The translations under genes were made by a program, and so were the position numbers. Under the pieces are notes generated by a model. That model was given only the letters and a program-made list of their open reading frames with translations, did not search any database and had not been told where the DNA came from. From contig NZ_JAMOKO010000003.1 in NCBI RefSeq assembly GCF_023656745.1, positions 1-64,000 of the forward strand: 64,000 nt of DNA. The letters run 5' to 3'. This stretch comes from Collinsella sp. BG-O-102. Its GTDB lineage: Bacteria > Actinomycetota > Coriobacteriia > Coriobacteriales > Coriobacteriaceae. Positions 5,278 through 10,710 of this stretch are shown here, in pieces. Numbering within the stretch: the first letter of the stretch is position 1; every line of letters begins with the position of its first letter.

Positions 5278-6513
5278 TTGCGTATATACCGACGTGAAAA
5301 GTATCTGAAGCGAATGCGTGGTTTCTACCACGATGACGGGATGATCAAGGTGATCACCGGTGTTCGCAGGTGCGGCAAATCCTGTCTCATGCAATCGATT
5401 GCGGACGAGCTCGTGGAATCCGGTGTGGCGGAGGATCACATTATCTATATCGACCTCGACTCACGGGAGAACAGGAAGGTCAAGACGACCGATGAGCTCG
5501 AAAACCTTATTGACATGTCGACCCCCGCAGACACTGAGGGGACAAAGTACCTTTTCATCGATGAGATTCAGAACGTAGAGGAATTCGAGCTGCTCATCAA
5601 CGGCTACCGGACAGATGGCGGTTGGTCCATCTTCATTACCGGTTCGAATTCATATCTGCTTTCTGGGCAGCTTGTTACAAAGCTGACGGGTCGCTATATC
5701 GAGTTCGAGGTGTTCCCACTCGATTTTGCGGAATATATCGATATGAAGCGTTTTCTCGGCAAGCCCGTCAATGACCTTCTCGTGGGAGAGTTTACCGAGT
5801 ACCTGACCCTTGGAGGCTTTCCCAAAGCGCTGGAGTATGAGGGCGAGGATGAAAAGCGCACCTATATCAAAAGTGTTATTCATGAGATCTTTGAAAAGGA
5901 CGTCAAACATTCGAACAAGATCAAGAATGTCTCGGTTTTCGATGCCGTCCAGACGTATCTCATCAACAACTTTGGTGCGCCGACGAACCTGAAGAACCTC
6001 CTTGCGTACTTCAATGATGTCGAGAAGATTCCCATCAAGCGCGAAACGCTCAATCGGTATATCCAGATTCTTGTTGACGCGAAGATCCTTTATCGCTGCT
6101 CGAGGTTCGATCTCAAGTCTCGGCGATCGCTTATCCGCGAAGAGAAGTACTACCTGGCTGATCCCGGCTTCTATTTCGCCATGAACACGGATGCGAGGAT
6201 TAACTACGGACCGGCGTTGGAGAACGTGCTCTACCTCTATCTTGCATCGCGCGGGTACGAGCTTTCTGTGGGCCGTATTGGGAAGCTCGAGTGTGACTTC
6301 ATCGCTCGTAGGCGCAATGCTTACGCCTACATCCAGGTCTCTATGTCGATTGCCGACAGAGGCGTCGAGGAGCGCGAGTACAGGCCGTTCGGCCACATCA
6401 GGGATGGGTATCCGCGCTACTTGTTCACGCTTGATCCTCTATTGCAGGAGAGGGATGGCGTCAGGCACCTTAACATGGCGTCGTTTATGCAAGATGGCGG
6501 TGATCTTATTTGA
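5278..6513 (+). CDS. AAA_14 / DUF4143 ATPase
   Basis: A 411-residue protein starting at TTG 5278 with AAGGGG six bases upstream. It has the AAA_14 N-domain (Walker A GVRRCGKS near residue 30, Walker B YLFIDEIQ near 95, sensor ITGSN) and the C-terminal DUF4143 domain, a PD-(D/E)XK-like fold (KLECDFIARRR ... YIQVS carries the D...(Q)xK-like positions with Q-V in place of the usual E-x-K). Such proteins are widespread, mobile single-gene ATPases of unclear role. Codon use and lower GC than neighbours suggest transfer. An inverted repeat lies before it. Confidence 0.85.
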   Translation: MRIYRREKYLKRMRGFYHDDGMIKVITGVRRCGKSCLMQSIADELVESGVAEDHIIYIDLDSRENRKVKTTDELENLIDMSTPADTEGTKYLFIDEIQNVEEFELLINGYRTDGGWSIFITGSNSYLLSGQLVTKLTGRYIEFEVFPLDFAEYIDMKRFLGKPVNDLLVGEFTEYLTLGGFPKALEYEGEDEKRTYIKSVIHEIFEKDVKHSNKIKNVSVFDAVQTYLINNFGAPTNLKNLLAYFNDVEKIPIKRETLNRYIQILVDAKILYRCSRFDLKSRRSLIREEKYYLADPGFYFAMNTDARINYGPALENVLYLYLASRGYELSVGRIGKLECDFIARRRNAYAYIQVSMSIADRGVEEREYRPFGHIRDGYPRYLFTLDPLLQERDGVRHLNMASFMQDGGDLI

Positions 6514-6539
6514 GCGGCGGCCAGATCCCTTTGGCGGCG

Positions 6540-6689
6540 TTATCGAACGTGCGCGTTCTCGTAGGCGTCATTAATCTCTTCCGACAAATCGTCGGGAATC
6601 AGCGCCTTCACCCTATTCTCACTGCCATCCTGAATCGCCTGTTCGTAGTATCAGCATTTGAACCTCAGCATATCCAGCGCACGGTTCAT
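6540..6689 (-). pseudogene. 49-codon ORF coupled to the SirTM-like gene, with in-frame TGA
   Basis: The ATG (6689-6687) overlaps the upstream sirtuin-like stop as ATGA. The frame reads MNRALDMLRFKC, then TGA at codon 13 (6651-6653), then YYEQAIQDGSENRVK and continues as clean, acidic coding sequence to TAA at 6540-6542. Both halves have normal composition, so a one-base change (for example TGG to TGA between C and Y) probably killed a small gene. The downstream part alone has no start codon with a ribosome site. Family not recognised with certainty. Translational coupling ties it to the sirtuin-like operon. Confidence 0.55.
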
Positions 6690-7525
6690 GTCCGCGCCGC
6701 CGAGAGCAGTGCGCCCAAATCGGCCTGGATCGCCTCTGCCTTGCTTCCAAGCTGCAGCGGCGCCGAGTCGCCCGATATGTTTACGCTCAGCAGGTGCGCA
6801 TCCGGCAGCTTTGCGGTCATGCTCCAGAACGGGAGCGTGATGATGCCGGGGGTCATCTCGCCCACGCCGAGCTCCAGCAACAGCACGCGGCTACTACCGC
6901 GCTCGCGCACGAAGTGCTCATATCGTTCGAGGCCCTCGCGCCATGCCGTGCCCTGCAAAAACGTGTCGTCGCGCACCCACGGCACAAGCTGCCAACCGCA
7001 GTGCGGGCATCGGGGGACATCCTCGCTGCGGATCTCGAACCCCGCCATGCCTGCGAGCATGCGCTCGACGTAGGGGCCCGCGTCGAAGAGCTCGTCGCAG
7101 CATGGCTGCTTGCATTGAAGGTGCGCGAAGCTTCCCTGATAGTTACAGGTCCTCTCGGCGGGAAACATCTTCTCGACCTGGGTGTCCACATTGGTGCTCA
7201 GGATGAAGTAATCCTTATGGCCGATGAGGGCCCGCAAGTCGAGATAGGGCTGTGAGGCGGGCTCGCGCAGCATGAAATCGATGTATCGCGCATAGTATGC
7301 CCATTGCTGTTCGAGGCTGGGGTAGAGGTGGTAGAAGCCGTCGAAAAGGCTCTTGAAGCCAAAGGCTTGCTGCCAGTCCGCCATTCCGGCACGCGTCATG
7401 CCCGCGTGGTTGTAATGGTTGAACCCGGCGGCGCTCGACATGCCCGAGCCGATGCCGACGATGATGGCGTCGGCATCGTCGATAAGGCTTCGAAGCCTCA
7501 TTGCTTCTCTTTCTAGAGGCGGCAT
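6686..7525 (-). CDS. SirTM-like (class M) sirtuin, third gene of array
   Basis: A 279-residue SIR2-fold protein. Visible motifs: nucleotide loop GIGSGMSSAAG (residues 24-34), TNVDTQVEK (111-119) in place of the usual TQNIDxLH, and NYQGSF (128-133) where ordinary sirtuins have the catalytic His-Gly; Gln at this position is typical of SirTM enzymes, which transfer ADP-ribose instead of deacetylating. A zinc ribbon follows (C138, C142/143, C173, C176). GGAG precedes the ATG at 7525, which lies inside the end of the previous gene (13-base overlap); an ATG nine residues in is an alternative start. No macrodomain, GcvH-L or lipoate ligase, the known SirTM partners, is nearby. Confidence 0.75.
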   Translation of the reverse strand: MPPLEREAMRLRSLIDDADAIIVGIGSGMSSAAGFNHYNHAGMTRAGMADWQQAFGFKSLFDGFYHLYPSLEQQWAYYARYIDFMLREPASQPYLDLRALIGHKDYFILSTNVDTQVEKMFPAERTCNYQGSFAHLQCKQPCCDELFDAGPYVERMLAGMAGFEIRSEDVPRCPHCGWQLVPWVRDDTFLQGTAWREGLERYEHFVRERGSSRVLLLELGVGEMTPGIITLPFWSMTAKLPDAHLLSVNISGDSAPLQLGSKAEAIQADLGALLSAART

Positions 7526-8211
7526 CGGGCAATCTCCTCAAAAGCCGGGGCCATATCGCCGTCAACGAGAATTGTCTCGCACGATGCATCGGGCGCCAAG
7601 GCCTGACTGTAGTTGAACACAATGTAGGTGGCGTGTTCGCAGACGTTCGCGACCTGAGCGAGCATGCGCTTTATGACGCCGTTGCGCAGTCCCACACCAA
7701 GTTCGAGGATGGCAACCTTGTGGTTGCGATGGGCTTGCACAAGGTGTGCGAGCTCTTCGAGCTGTGCCATGGCGAGGGCATCTGGATGGGCGAGACGCCG
7801 CTCGTCAATCGACGTGCGTATGCTCCCCTCCGTTTCGAGCACGCTGTTCTCGTTGAACCCTGCACGTGCGAAGTGTCCGTCGATATTGCACGTGATCACG
7901 AAGGTGTCAGCGTGCTCCGTAAGATGCCGCAGCCTGTTCATGAGTGGGCTGGGCTCATACTCGACATACTCCTTTTGATGGAACCGCTCGGCCCATCGGC
8001 GTCGTACGTTTGCATCTAGAGAGGCGAGCCCCTGCAGTATGCAGCCGATGCCGTCGGCCTGGGCGAGGTCCCCGTACGCCTCTCGGAAATGGGCGTCGGC
8101 GCAGAAGAGATTGAGCCCCTCCGCTATGTCGAGCCCGTTGCTGGCGCCGATGATGACAAGATCCGCCTCGGCAAGTGCCTGGCCGATACGAACCGCTTTT
8201 ACCGTTTCCAT
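7513..8211 (-). CDS. Divergent SirTM-like protein lacking zinc ribbon, second gene of array
   Basis: A 232-residue relative of its neighbours: IIGASNGLDIAEGLNLF for the nucleotide loop, ITCNIDGHF in the NID position, and LELGVGLRNGVIKRM matching the LELGVGxMTP stretch of both flanking proteins. Two features are lost: the zinc-binding Cys pairs are absent, and the Gln-Gly is Glu-Gly (ETEGSIR). It is therefore likely a regulatory or degenerate paralogue rather than an enzyme. It begins three bases after the stop of the upstream copy and overlaps the downstream copy, so the three form one transcript. Confidence 0.7.
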   Translation of the reverse strand: METVKAVRIGQALAEADLVIIGASNGLDIAEGLNLFCADAHFREAYGDLAQADGIGCILQGLASLDANVRRRWAERFHQKEYVEYEPSPLMNRLRHLTEHADTFVITCNIDGHFARAGFNENSVLETEGSIRTSIDERRLAHPDALAMAQLEELAHLVQAHRNHKVAILELGVGLRNGVIKRMLAQVANVCEHATYIVFNYSQALAPDASCETILVDGDMAPAFEEIARCRL

Positions 8212-8214
8212 GCG

Positions 8215-9181
8215 CTACCTACCCAGCGTCTTGCGCACGTCGGCGAGCACGTCGGCGATATCGGCACGAACGGCGAGCCCCCGGTCCTCGATCGCGCGGG
8301 GGAGAAACTGCGTCTTGTTGTTTACGGCGATGTAGCTGGCCTGCGGCAACTGCGCCGTGAGGGCCCAGAACGGCTCCTGGATAAACGCAGGCGTCATGCG
8401 GCCCACGCCCAGCTCGAGGAAGAGGATCCTCTGCCGCGCGTGCGCGTCGAGCCAGTCGGACACCTTGCGGTACTGCTCCTCGTAGAGCTCGCCCTGCAGG
8501 AAGTTGCCGTAGCCGCGAACCCAAGGGAACGCCTCTGCCCCGCAGTGCGGGCAGCGTGGCACGAGCTCTGTCGGAACCTCTAGGCCGTCTCCCATGGCCT
8601 CTACCATACGAGAGACCGGCTCGATGGCGTCCCATACCTCGTCCGTACAGCAACGGGAGCACTGGAAGAAGCGGTGGTCGCCTTGGATTTCTGCCACCTT
8701 CTCCCAAGGGTAGATTTTCATGAACTGCGTGTCCTGGTTGGTGGTGAGAACGAAGAAGTCTTTCTCGGTAAGAATGGCGTCGAGATTTTTTGTAGGGCTC
8801 GCGCAGCGGGGCGTTGAGCGTGGTGTCGAGGAAGGTGGCAAGGTAGCCCCAGCGCGACTCGGCGGTGGGCCAGCGGTAGGACGACCCTTCAAAAGCGCCC
8901 CTGAAACCGTAGCGCTCGGCGAATTTGCCGAAATGCCTGCGATGGGTCGCGTTGTCCTCGTAGTAGAAGTCGCCGCCGCCCGCCGCGGAGAGCCCGGAGG
9001 CCCCGCCTACAAGCACGCAATCGGCTTCATCGATCATGCGGGCAAACGTTTCGATTTGCTGGTCGTAGGGCTCGGGCTCGCGGGCACTCAGCTCATAGGG
9101 CGTGCCGCCGGTGCGGTAGGCGGTCTGATGGGAAAACGATTGGTTGGTGAGTTCGATAACGAGCCGCTCGTATAGAGTCAC
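8215..9181 (-). pseudogene. SirTM-like gene with frameshift at an A6 run, first gene of array
   Basis: Two frames together make a full SirTM-like protein of ~320 residues. The 5' part (probable GTG start at 9181, GAGAG seven bases upstream) gives VLVGGASGLSAAGG and runs to NAPLREPYK; the 3' part continues NLDAILTEKDFFVLTTNQD, EIQGDHRFFQC, a CxxC pair (CPHCG) and ends at 8215. The switch occurs at six A (forward T run 8786-8791); five A would restore one frame. This is either a mutation, a sequencing error, or a slippage site. The Gln-Gly of SirTM enzymes is kept (IQG). Confidence 0.75.
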
Positions 9182-9231
9182 TTGATACTCTCTTTCAACT
9201 ACAATGAACAGGTGTCTATAAAAAGTATCAA
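9182..9231. promoter_or_regulatory. Dyad between the SirTM-like array and TetR gene
   Basis: TTGATACT (9182-9189) and AGTATCAA (9224-9231) form a perfect 8-base inverted repeat. On the plus strand TCTATA (9215-9220) could be the -10 of the TetR gene; on the minus strand the left arm overlaps the start of the sirtuin-like array. This is the natural place for a TetR operator controlling both directions. Confidence 0.45.
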
Positions 9232-9324
9232 TGTTGATTTGCGTCAGAGCAATGAACAGCTTCGAGCTGCTGTCGATAAACGAGCGGCTTCTGGATATTG
9301 TTGAGCGCTGCAATTGGAGGGGCC

Positions 9325-9882
9325 ATGGAATCGGGGAAGATCGATCGTCGCCGACGCTATACGCTCTCGGTCATACGGGAGGCGTTCTTTGCGCTGCTGG
9401 CCGAGGTCGGCTTCGCGAAGATGACGGTGGCGGATATCTGCCGCCGCGCCGATATCAACCGCGGCACGTTCTATTTGCACTACGAGGACAAGTTCGCGCT
9501 GCTCGACGAACTTATCGACGAGGCCCTGGCGGCGGCGCCGCCGCTCGAGGGAACGGAGGCGGGCGCCCTCTGCCAGCGCCCGCCGGCAAACGATGACTAT
9601 TATCTGCTTTACTCGGATGACGACGCATACGCCCGGGTGGCTCAGCGCGTCGTCGACCGCGGCGCTGAGCAGATGGTCCCCTCGATCATGGAGGAGACCG
9701 GGCTTTCGCGCGAGGACGCCTATCTGCTCTTCGTCCACAACGTCCAGGGAAATCTCGCGGTCAACCGCCTGCTCGGTTGGAGGCGAGGGTCCGAGTTCGC
9801 TCACGCCCAGGAGCTGCTCAGCGCCTATTCCGAAGGGGGCATGCGGGCGGTATCGGCCCCTTGCACACCGATCGCGAATTAG
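9325..9882 (+). CDS. TetR-family regulator
   Basis: A 185-residue protein. GGAGGGG just before ATG 9325 supports this start over the upstream frame opening at 9298. The N-terminal HTH is typical (AFFALLAEVGFAKMTVADIC then RRADINRGTFYLHYEDK), and the tail fits the TetR_C domain 33-type ligand domain. It is divergent from the SirTM-like array across a dyad and convergent with the cupin gene (4-base overlap of stops). Controlling the array is the simplest inference; no ligand can be named. Confidence 0.85.
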   Translation: MESGKIDRRRRYTLSVIREAFFALLAEVGFAKMTVADICRRADINRGTFYLHYEDKFALLDELIDEALAAAPPLEGTEAGALCQRPPANDDYYLLYSDDDAYARVAQRVVDRGAEQMVPSIMEETGLSREDAYLLFVHNVQGNLAVNRLLGWRRGSEFAHAQELLSAYSEGGMRAVSAPCTPIAN

Positions 9883-10232
9883 AGCATGATAGCGTCGTCG
9901 GCCGTGAAGGCATCAAGGGATCCCTGCTTGACCTGGATGCAGACGTATGTGATGCCCGAGTCGGATGCGGCGCGGAACTGACGGTGTGCGGCGGGGGAAA
10001 TGCGCAGCCAGTCGCCGGCTGCAAGCTCGATTTCCTCACCGTCGATCGTGACCGAGCCAGCGCCTTCGATCACGCCATAGATTTCCTCGTTTTCCTTGTG
10101 TGCATGGACGAACGGAACGCCAGCGCCGGCGGGAAGATTGTTGACACTCACCTCTGCCCCGGTAAGCCCGAGCACTTCGTGCAGCTCGACACGGCTCTCA
10201 TTACCGATGTGGGTCTTTGCATAATTAGCCAT
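9879..10232 (-). CDS. Small cupin-domain protein
   Basis: A 117-residue single-domain cupin. Motif 1 is present as PFVHAHKENEEIYGVIEG (His, His, Glu metal ligands) and motif 2 as GDWLRISPAAHRQFRA (His ligand). GAGAGGAACC precedes the ATG. Its promoter region is shared with the HxlR regulator on the other strand, so it is probably part of that electrophile- or quinone-responsive set. Substrate unknown; such cupins range from quercetinase-like to sugar isomerase-like. Confidence 0.85.
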   Translation of the reverse strand: MANYAKTHIGNESRVELHEVLGLTGAEVSVNNLPAGAGVPFVHAHKENEEIYGVIEGAGSVTIDGEEIELAAGDWLRISPAAHRQFRAASDSGITYVCIQVKQGSLDAFTADDAIML

Positions 10233-10342: not shown

Positions 10343-10386
10343 TTTTTTGTGAAACCGGTATGGTCAAGGAGGTTGAGTCTCCCGTG

Positions 10387-10710
10387 ATGGCGAAAGAGGA
10401 GCTTCCGGAGTGTCCGGTCGCAACGGCGGTAGCGCTCATTGGCGGCAAGTGGAAGCTGCTCATTATCCGTAACTTGCGCGTACGCCCCTGGCGTTTCAAC
10501 GAGTTGCGCCGCGACCTTGAGGGAATCTCTCAGAAGGTGCTTACCGACAGCCTGCGGCAGATGGAGGATGATGGGCTGGTCTTTCGCCACGACTATGGCG
10601 AGAATCCTCCCCGCGTTGAGTATGGCCTTACCGAGCTCGGCCGCCAGATGATGCCCGTCGTGGACTCGCTGGCAGACTTCGGCGCTTATTACAAGACGGT
10701 CGTTTCGTAG
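10387..10710 (+). CDS. HxlR-family (DUF24) regulator
   Basis: A ~107-residue winged-helix regulator: CPVATAVALIGGKWKLLIIR is the hallmark opening with its sensing Cys, then FNELRRDLEGISQKVLTDSL and RVEYGLTELG. Starts at ATG 10387 or GTG 10384 lie 11-14 bases after AAGGAGG (10366-10372); an ATG at 10360 is also in frame. HxlR proteins sense electrophiles or disulfide stress through the N-terminal Cys. Divergent cupin and downstream flavodoxin-like reductase fit a quinone-stress regulon. Confidence 0.88.
   Translation: MAKEELPECPVATAVALIGGKWKLLIIRNLRVRPWRFNELRRDLEGISQKVLTDSLRQMEDDGLVFRHDYGENPPRVEYGLTELGRQMMPVVDSLADFGAYYKTVVS

Follow-up and report, generated by a model that had tools for sequence, protein, structure and literature searches.

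Where sirtuin-like genes of the SirTM type stand side by side in a genome that carries neither the macrodomain nor the GcvH-L with which SirTM is known to work, the question arises whether they form a module of their own and what a copy with an altered active site would contribute to it. Such a locus was analyzed in a window of 64,000 nucleotides from Collinsella sp. BG-O-102 (contig NZ_JAMOKO010000003.1, positions 1 to 64,000).

Organization and integrity of the array

The sirtuin-gene array in the window is real. Three SIR2-fold genes, as described in the original prediction, follow one another tightly on one strand in the order sirC (9181-8215), sirB (8211-7513) and sirA (7525-6686), with a gap of 3 bases between sirC and sirB and an overlap of 13 bases between sirB and sirA. 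Overall, what the original prediction had observed was partly confirmed and its interpretation was partly supported. The features of the array and its immediate edge are:

8215 to 9181, minus strand: sirC, an EIQG SirTM-like protein of the C clade (100/96) that matches the C-type profile; frameshifted here
about 8796 to 9181 and 8215 to about 8790, minus strand: the N-half and the C-half of sirC, from comparison with seven orthologues
7513 to 8211, minus strand: sirB, an EG (LETEG) sirtuin-fold partner of 232 aa that has lost the zinc module
6686 to 7525, minus strand: sirA, an NYQG SirTM-like protein of the A clade, intact, 279 aa
6540 to 6689, minus strand: the "tiny coupled ORF", which is the left-over 3' end of a MerR-type regulator gene, interrupted by an in-frame TGA; outside the system

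The last of these had been counted as a coupled member of the array and proved to be a pseudogene scrap of a MerR gene. Its translation reads MNRALDMLRFKC, a stop and then YYEQ..., a Trp codon having been changed to TGA, and the whole MerR-type gene is found in genome G008 (L032, 11104-11544), where it lies about 1.3 kb further off, past a CMD-cupin gene. The DNA between the array and the MerR 3' end is gone from the window through a deletion of about 1.3 kb. With this intact counterpart at hand, the idea that the ORF encodes a small substrate or a regulator was ruled out.

Contrary to what had been presumed, the array is also not intact in the window genome. Relative to close congeners, sirC carries a +1 frameshift in a tract of six A residues near position 8790, where their CCCTACAAAGATCTC corresponds to CCCTACAAAAAATCTC in the window, so that the N-half and the C-half are read in different frames; sirC is intact in the congeners, seven orthologues having been compared. 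The frameshift may have arisen by mutation, may mark a site of slippage or may stem from an error in the assembly. Because sirC is frameshifted, the fully made products of the window genome would be A and B only, unless the A6 tract in sirC slips. Frameshifts confined to a single gene also affect sirA in G005 and sirB in G036. Deletion relics consisting of short sirA, sirB, sirC and TetR pieces fused in order were observed in G002 (L046, about 6396-7003) and G003 (L047, about 7404-8011). In G036, the region downstream of the array contains another TetR copy, which has diverged, and a sirA 3' fragment (L034, 9108-9954 and 11734-12030), a partial tandem duplication of the operon. Since many congeners have lost or broken it, the array is accessory, often lost and dispensable.

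Fold, motifs and active site

All three array proteins fell below the cut-off of the Pfam SIR2 profile and none carries the canonical deacylase signature of a catalytic HG together with a SIR2 profile match; the single canonical SIR2 of this genome is encoded on another contig (C45). In sequence searches, sirA matched the S. pyogenes SirTM (PDB 5a3a) with E=3.7e-35 and the fungal macrodomain-SirTM fusion 8rsn with 2e-16, and the sole match of sirB was a weak one to 5a3a (2.1e-5). The AlphaFold model of sirA (mean pLDDT 92) superimposes on 5a3a with a TM score of 0.88 and includes the zinc-binding small domain characteristic of SirTM, while the model of sirB (pLDDT 79) has 5a3a as its best PDB match (TM 0.64) and consists of the Rossmann part only, the zinc module being absent. 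Sequence and fold searches alike placed the proteins with SirTM, as had been predicted, and not outside it.

The activity of SpySirTM requires Asn118, Gln137 and Arg192 (PMC4518038). This triad is kept in sirA as Asn112, Gln130 and Arg185, along with four zinc Cys, and C proteins keep the equivalents of all three residues (Asn148 and Arg222 in the numbering of L084). Gln-Gly in place of the HG of canonical sirtuins is found in sirA (NYQG) and sirC (EIQG), which also have the zinc Cys, and the middle copy sirB reads ETEG and has none, in agreement with the original prediction. In sirB, Asn109 is retained, Glu128 occupies the Gln137 position and the Arg192 position is lost. The same pattern extends to the EG proteins as a group, in which the Asn is kept, Glu is invariant at the Gln137 position, an acidic residue or a gap stands at the Arg192 position and the GxGxS loop has become ASNG; the invariants ASNG...TxN...E-x-E-G (ExEG or xEG) are retained across two phyla. 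Loss of the zinc Cys, which had been taken to mark the partner, does not do so: most EG proteins retain these residues, the exceptions being the window lineage, which lacks them, and lactobacilli, with a partial loss. Complete absence of the zinc Cys characterizes the window lineage and was therefore ruled out as a defining trait.

Missing partners

At 2.27 Mb, the window genome is 99.98% complete, and neither GcvH nor a macrodomain is encoded anywhere in it, so that these two known partners are missing here as had been noted, as is the GcvH-L linkage of extended operons. An ARH-family gene is present elsewhere in this genome. Among 18 array genomes, the macrodomain gene is absent from ten (the window genome and nine more); in the other eight it is either at a distance of at least about 20 kb or on a separate contig, and in the two cases checked (G258 and G324) it adjoins another SirTM gene. 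ARH-family genes occur in 13 of the 18 genomes and are lacking in five. The neighbourhood survey that had been suggested found no macrodomain or GcvH-L gene beside the homologous arrays. Since macrodomain linkage defines class M, and this linkage was looked for and not found, the array is a sister branch and is not filed as class M.

Lipoylation-dependent modification of GcvH-L as in S. pyogenes would fit the QG motif, Asn118, Arg192 and zinc Cys that A and C retain. It is very improbable for this array, whose genome has neither GcvH nor a macrodomain; GcvH-L as the target in the window genome is refuted, and another lipoyl carrier is possible. The QG subunits of the array are nonetheless expected, from their conserved residues, to work like SirTM.

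Distribution of the array

A scan with the sirB profile, using one genome per species, yielded 16 loci in Collinsella, Hugonella massiliensis, Olsenella, Slackia, uncultured Coriobacteriaceae, Ureibacillus and Sporomusa. As a rule, each locus encodes one EG and two QG proteins according to their motifs. The gene order is C-B-A in the lineage of the window, whereas most other Coriobacteriia have B-A-C and Ureibacillus has C-C-B. For Hugonella massiliensis the identity is 88%, a clear sign of horizontal transfer. Its presence in many genera (Hugonella, Olsenella and others) and the purifying selection described below make the array more than a chance arrangement.

On Paenibacillus and Mesobacillus plasmids, a QG-EG pair is followed by genes for an HD protein, a nicotinate phosphoribosyltransferase and an isochorismatase-family (nicotinamidase-like) hydrolase; lactobacilli plasmids carry a QG gene, a gene in which EG is fused to a cupin, and a TetR gene. 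Because these Bacillus-group and Lactobacillus plasmids hold a QG and EG pair, the minimal unit, judged from gene content, is C plus EG. The EG-cupin fusions were located in L131 (6800-8134; Cupin_5/DUF985) and L137 (3965-5296), where the partner QG protein is devoid of zinc Cys. The Sporomusa locus (L092, 7413-11274) comprises a truncated C, EG, nicotinamidase and NAPRT, and adjoins a carbon monoxide dehydrogenase-like region. Among 398 Bacillota genomes, EG arrays were seen in Ureibacillus alone, and a second sample of 299 genomes around Sporomusa, many in common with the first, added Sporomusa only. No description of the QG/EG pair was found in the part of the literature that our search covered.

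Co-occurrence, phylogeny and selection

In 398 Coriobacteriia, with thresholds of over 225 bits for the EG profiles and over 350 bits for the C profiles (next value 288), EG was detected in 17 genomes and C in 18, with both in 16, C only in two and EG only in one (Fisher's p 2e-25, a statistic that ignores kinship). One of the C-only genomes (G287) has a truncated EG next door, and in the other (G359) no EG lies closer than 1.5 kb to C. In the single genome that has EG but not C (G148, L093), A is truncated. C and EG were adjacent in every locus read, and the same pairing recurs in Ureibacillus, Sporomusa, Paenibacillus, Mesobacillus and lactobacilli.

A tree calculated after masking of the columns for QG/EG and the GxGxS loop resolved EG (16 rows, 100/99), C (13 rows, 100/96) and A (9 rows, 100/98) as single groups, with the macrodomain-linked SirTMs (12 rows) as a separate group (98/98). 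A and C were sisters (99/97) and EG, A and C stood together (98/98) with the macrodomain-linked SirTMs outside, in a tree that has one long outgroup branch and an unsure root. The unmasked tree contained the same four groups. EG and C distances over 12 loci correlated with r=0.73 (0 of 10000 permutations), a similarity from which the relatedness of the organisms is not removed. For congener pairs distant enough, and with the codons around the sirC frameshift omitted, the dN/dS of A, B and C was in most cases 0.12-0.21, with sirB at about 0.15-0.20, indicating purifying selection. At the level of genes, clades and co-occurrence show that the QG/EG SirTM-like module is old, co-inherited and distinct from class M both in its clade and in lacking a macrodomain, a pairing that fits the catalytic/non-catalytic partnership proposed originally.

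These data also bear on whether the genes are simply diverging duplicates of an ordinary SirTM, sirB being a degenerate copy in the course of being lost. The broken or deleted arrays of many congeners and the frameshifts in sirC (window), sirA (G005) and sirB (G036) would fit such a course, which is nevertheless quite unlikely, as EG constitutes one old clade with invariant residues and low dN/dS that is present in nearly every C genome. A decaying sirB was ruled out by its dN/dS and its conservation across phyla.

Neighbouring genes

Beyond the upstream end of the array, the following genes were identified:

9325 to 9882, plus strand: TetR-family regulator, divergent from the array, a neighbour that co-diverges with it
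9879 to 10232, minus strand: Cupin_2 protein beside the TetR gene, retained in the closest congeners only
10381 to 10710, plus strand: HxlR-type regulator with relatives near macrodomain-linked SirTM loci and near Bacillus-group EG arrays

Identity of the TetR regulator to the window copy is 93% in Hugonella, 72% in G258, 68% in G324 and about 31-33% in lactobacilli, and its co-divergence with the array was seen in the C-B(-A) lineage. Between the TetR gene and sirC (9182-9324), an inverted pair, TTGATACT...AGTATCAA, was spotted by eye and might be a candidate operator. A cupin as a common component was ruled out, the window protein being a Cupin_2 and the Lactobacillus fusion a Cupin_5. Further away, the window contains an AbiD-like (Abi_2) gene (280-1359) and a DUF4143-type ATPase (5278-6513) that matches the PADLOC candidate PDC-S01 at 1.4e-132.

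A defence role, which had been raised on account of these last two genes, would make the array an anti-phage or toxin-like NAD-depletion system. Sirtuins do act in several defence systems, FAM118A/B and ThsA provide examples of paired or triggered NAD processing (PMC12700824, PMC9503650), and both the AbiD-like gene and the PDC-S01 ATPase are situated within 6 kb. We consider this role improbable, however: across the loci of relatives that were compared, neither gene is conserved beside the array (an Abi relative occurs at a similar distance only in G021, with 49% identity, and the ATPase elsewhere only as distant paralogues), and the genes that are linked to it are of metabolic and redox type. 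Neither of the features of known anti-phage systems, a PADLOC model match and conserved defence neighbours, was found, since no PADLOC model fits C and none was significant for A or B (best 0.04). Phage records contained no match for B, and viral contigs contained one 32-residue match for B and none for C. Phage carriage was ruled out by these counts and a defence island by the variation of the Abi and ATPase neighbours among relatives.

Proposed function

With moderate confidence, and on the strength of motifs, clades and gene content, we propose that the array encodes a two-component, macrodomain-independent SirTM-like module in which a QG ADP-ribosyltransferase or NAD consumer is joined by a non-transferase EG partner. 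By analogy with SpySirTM, the QG subunits would cleave NAD+, release nicotinamide and ADP-ribosylate a target. The EG subunit would not be a transferase, because it has lost the Gln137/Arg192 pair, which positions the nicotinamide ribose; it would form an assembly with C (and A) in which it would permit or limit their activity or pick the target. Expression in the window lineage would be controlled by TetR, and in the Bacillus group, the nicotinamide set free would be recycled to NAD by NAPRT and the isochorismatase/nicotinamidase.

Alternatively, EG might be an enzyme with an altered reaction, for example an eraser in which the Glu activates water and B strips the ADP-ribose added by C and A. 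This is rather unlikely, even though the Glu is found without exception in the EG proteins of two phyla, the Asn118 equivalent is retained, sirB is under purifying selection, ten of the 18 array genomes have no macrodomain and the macrodomain-linked SirTMs are a separate clade. The changed pyrophosphate loop and Arg192 position, together with the missing zinc module of the window lineage, look more like a loss of catalysis, and the ARH-family gene of 13 array genomes could serve as the eraser, though five are without it. It is likewise unlikely that the EG protein represents a novel type of eraser or NAD sensor, taking the place of the macrodomain and undoing or gating QG-made ADP-ribosylation; were it so, writer and eraser would share one common fold.

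Comparison with known systems

The proposed QG/EG module resembles SirTM of class M (SpySirTM, PDB 5a3a; PMC4518038) in fold and in the QG motif, Asn118, Gln137, Arg192 and zinc Cys of A and C. It differs in having neither macrodomain linkage nor GcvH-L, in its tandem QG+EG(+QG) arrangement and in forming a separate clade. With the lone SirTM/Zn-Macro pairs (PMC11490716), which are also found elsewhere in this genus (L041, L042 and L044), it shares the SirTM fold, the QG motif and nearby HxlR regulators, but the partner in those pairs is a macrodomain eraser and they have no EG partner. The only known SirTM substrate is GcvH-L, and the role of lone SirTMs is an open question (PMC11490716); a macrodomain-free SirTM branch with an EG paralogue, accompanied in some operons by nicotinamide-salvage genes, offers a testable handle on both.

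ThsA and other defence sirtuins are alike in the sirtuin fold, NAD processing being a feature of the known members; ThsA is far down the structure ranking (6lhx, rank 40), and the array has no conserved SLOG, TIR or Abi partner. Human FAM118A and FAM118B are, like the array, two sirtuin paralogues in one organism, and there they were shown to cooperate on NAD (PMC12700824). These proteins are ThsA-like and both keep the catalytic His and Asn, whereas the EG protein has lost the catalytic residue; both active sites are required there (PMC12700824), unlike what the lost residues would suggest for the array. Among bacteria, the QG/EG module may exemplify a sirtuin that is activated or aimed by a non-transferase paralogue.
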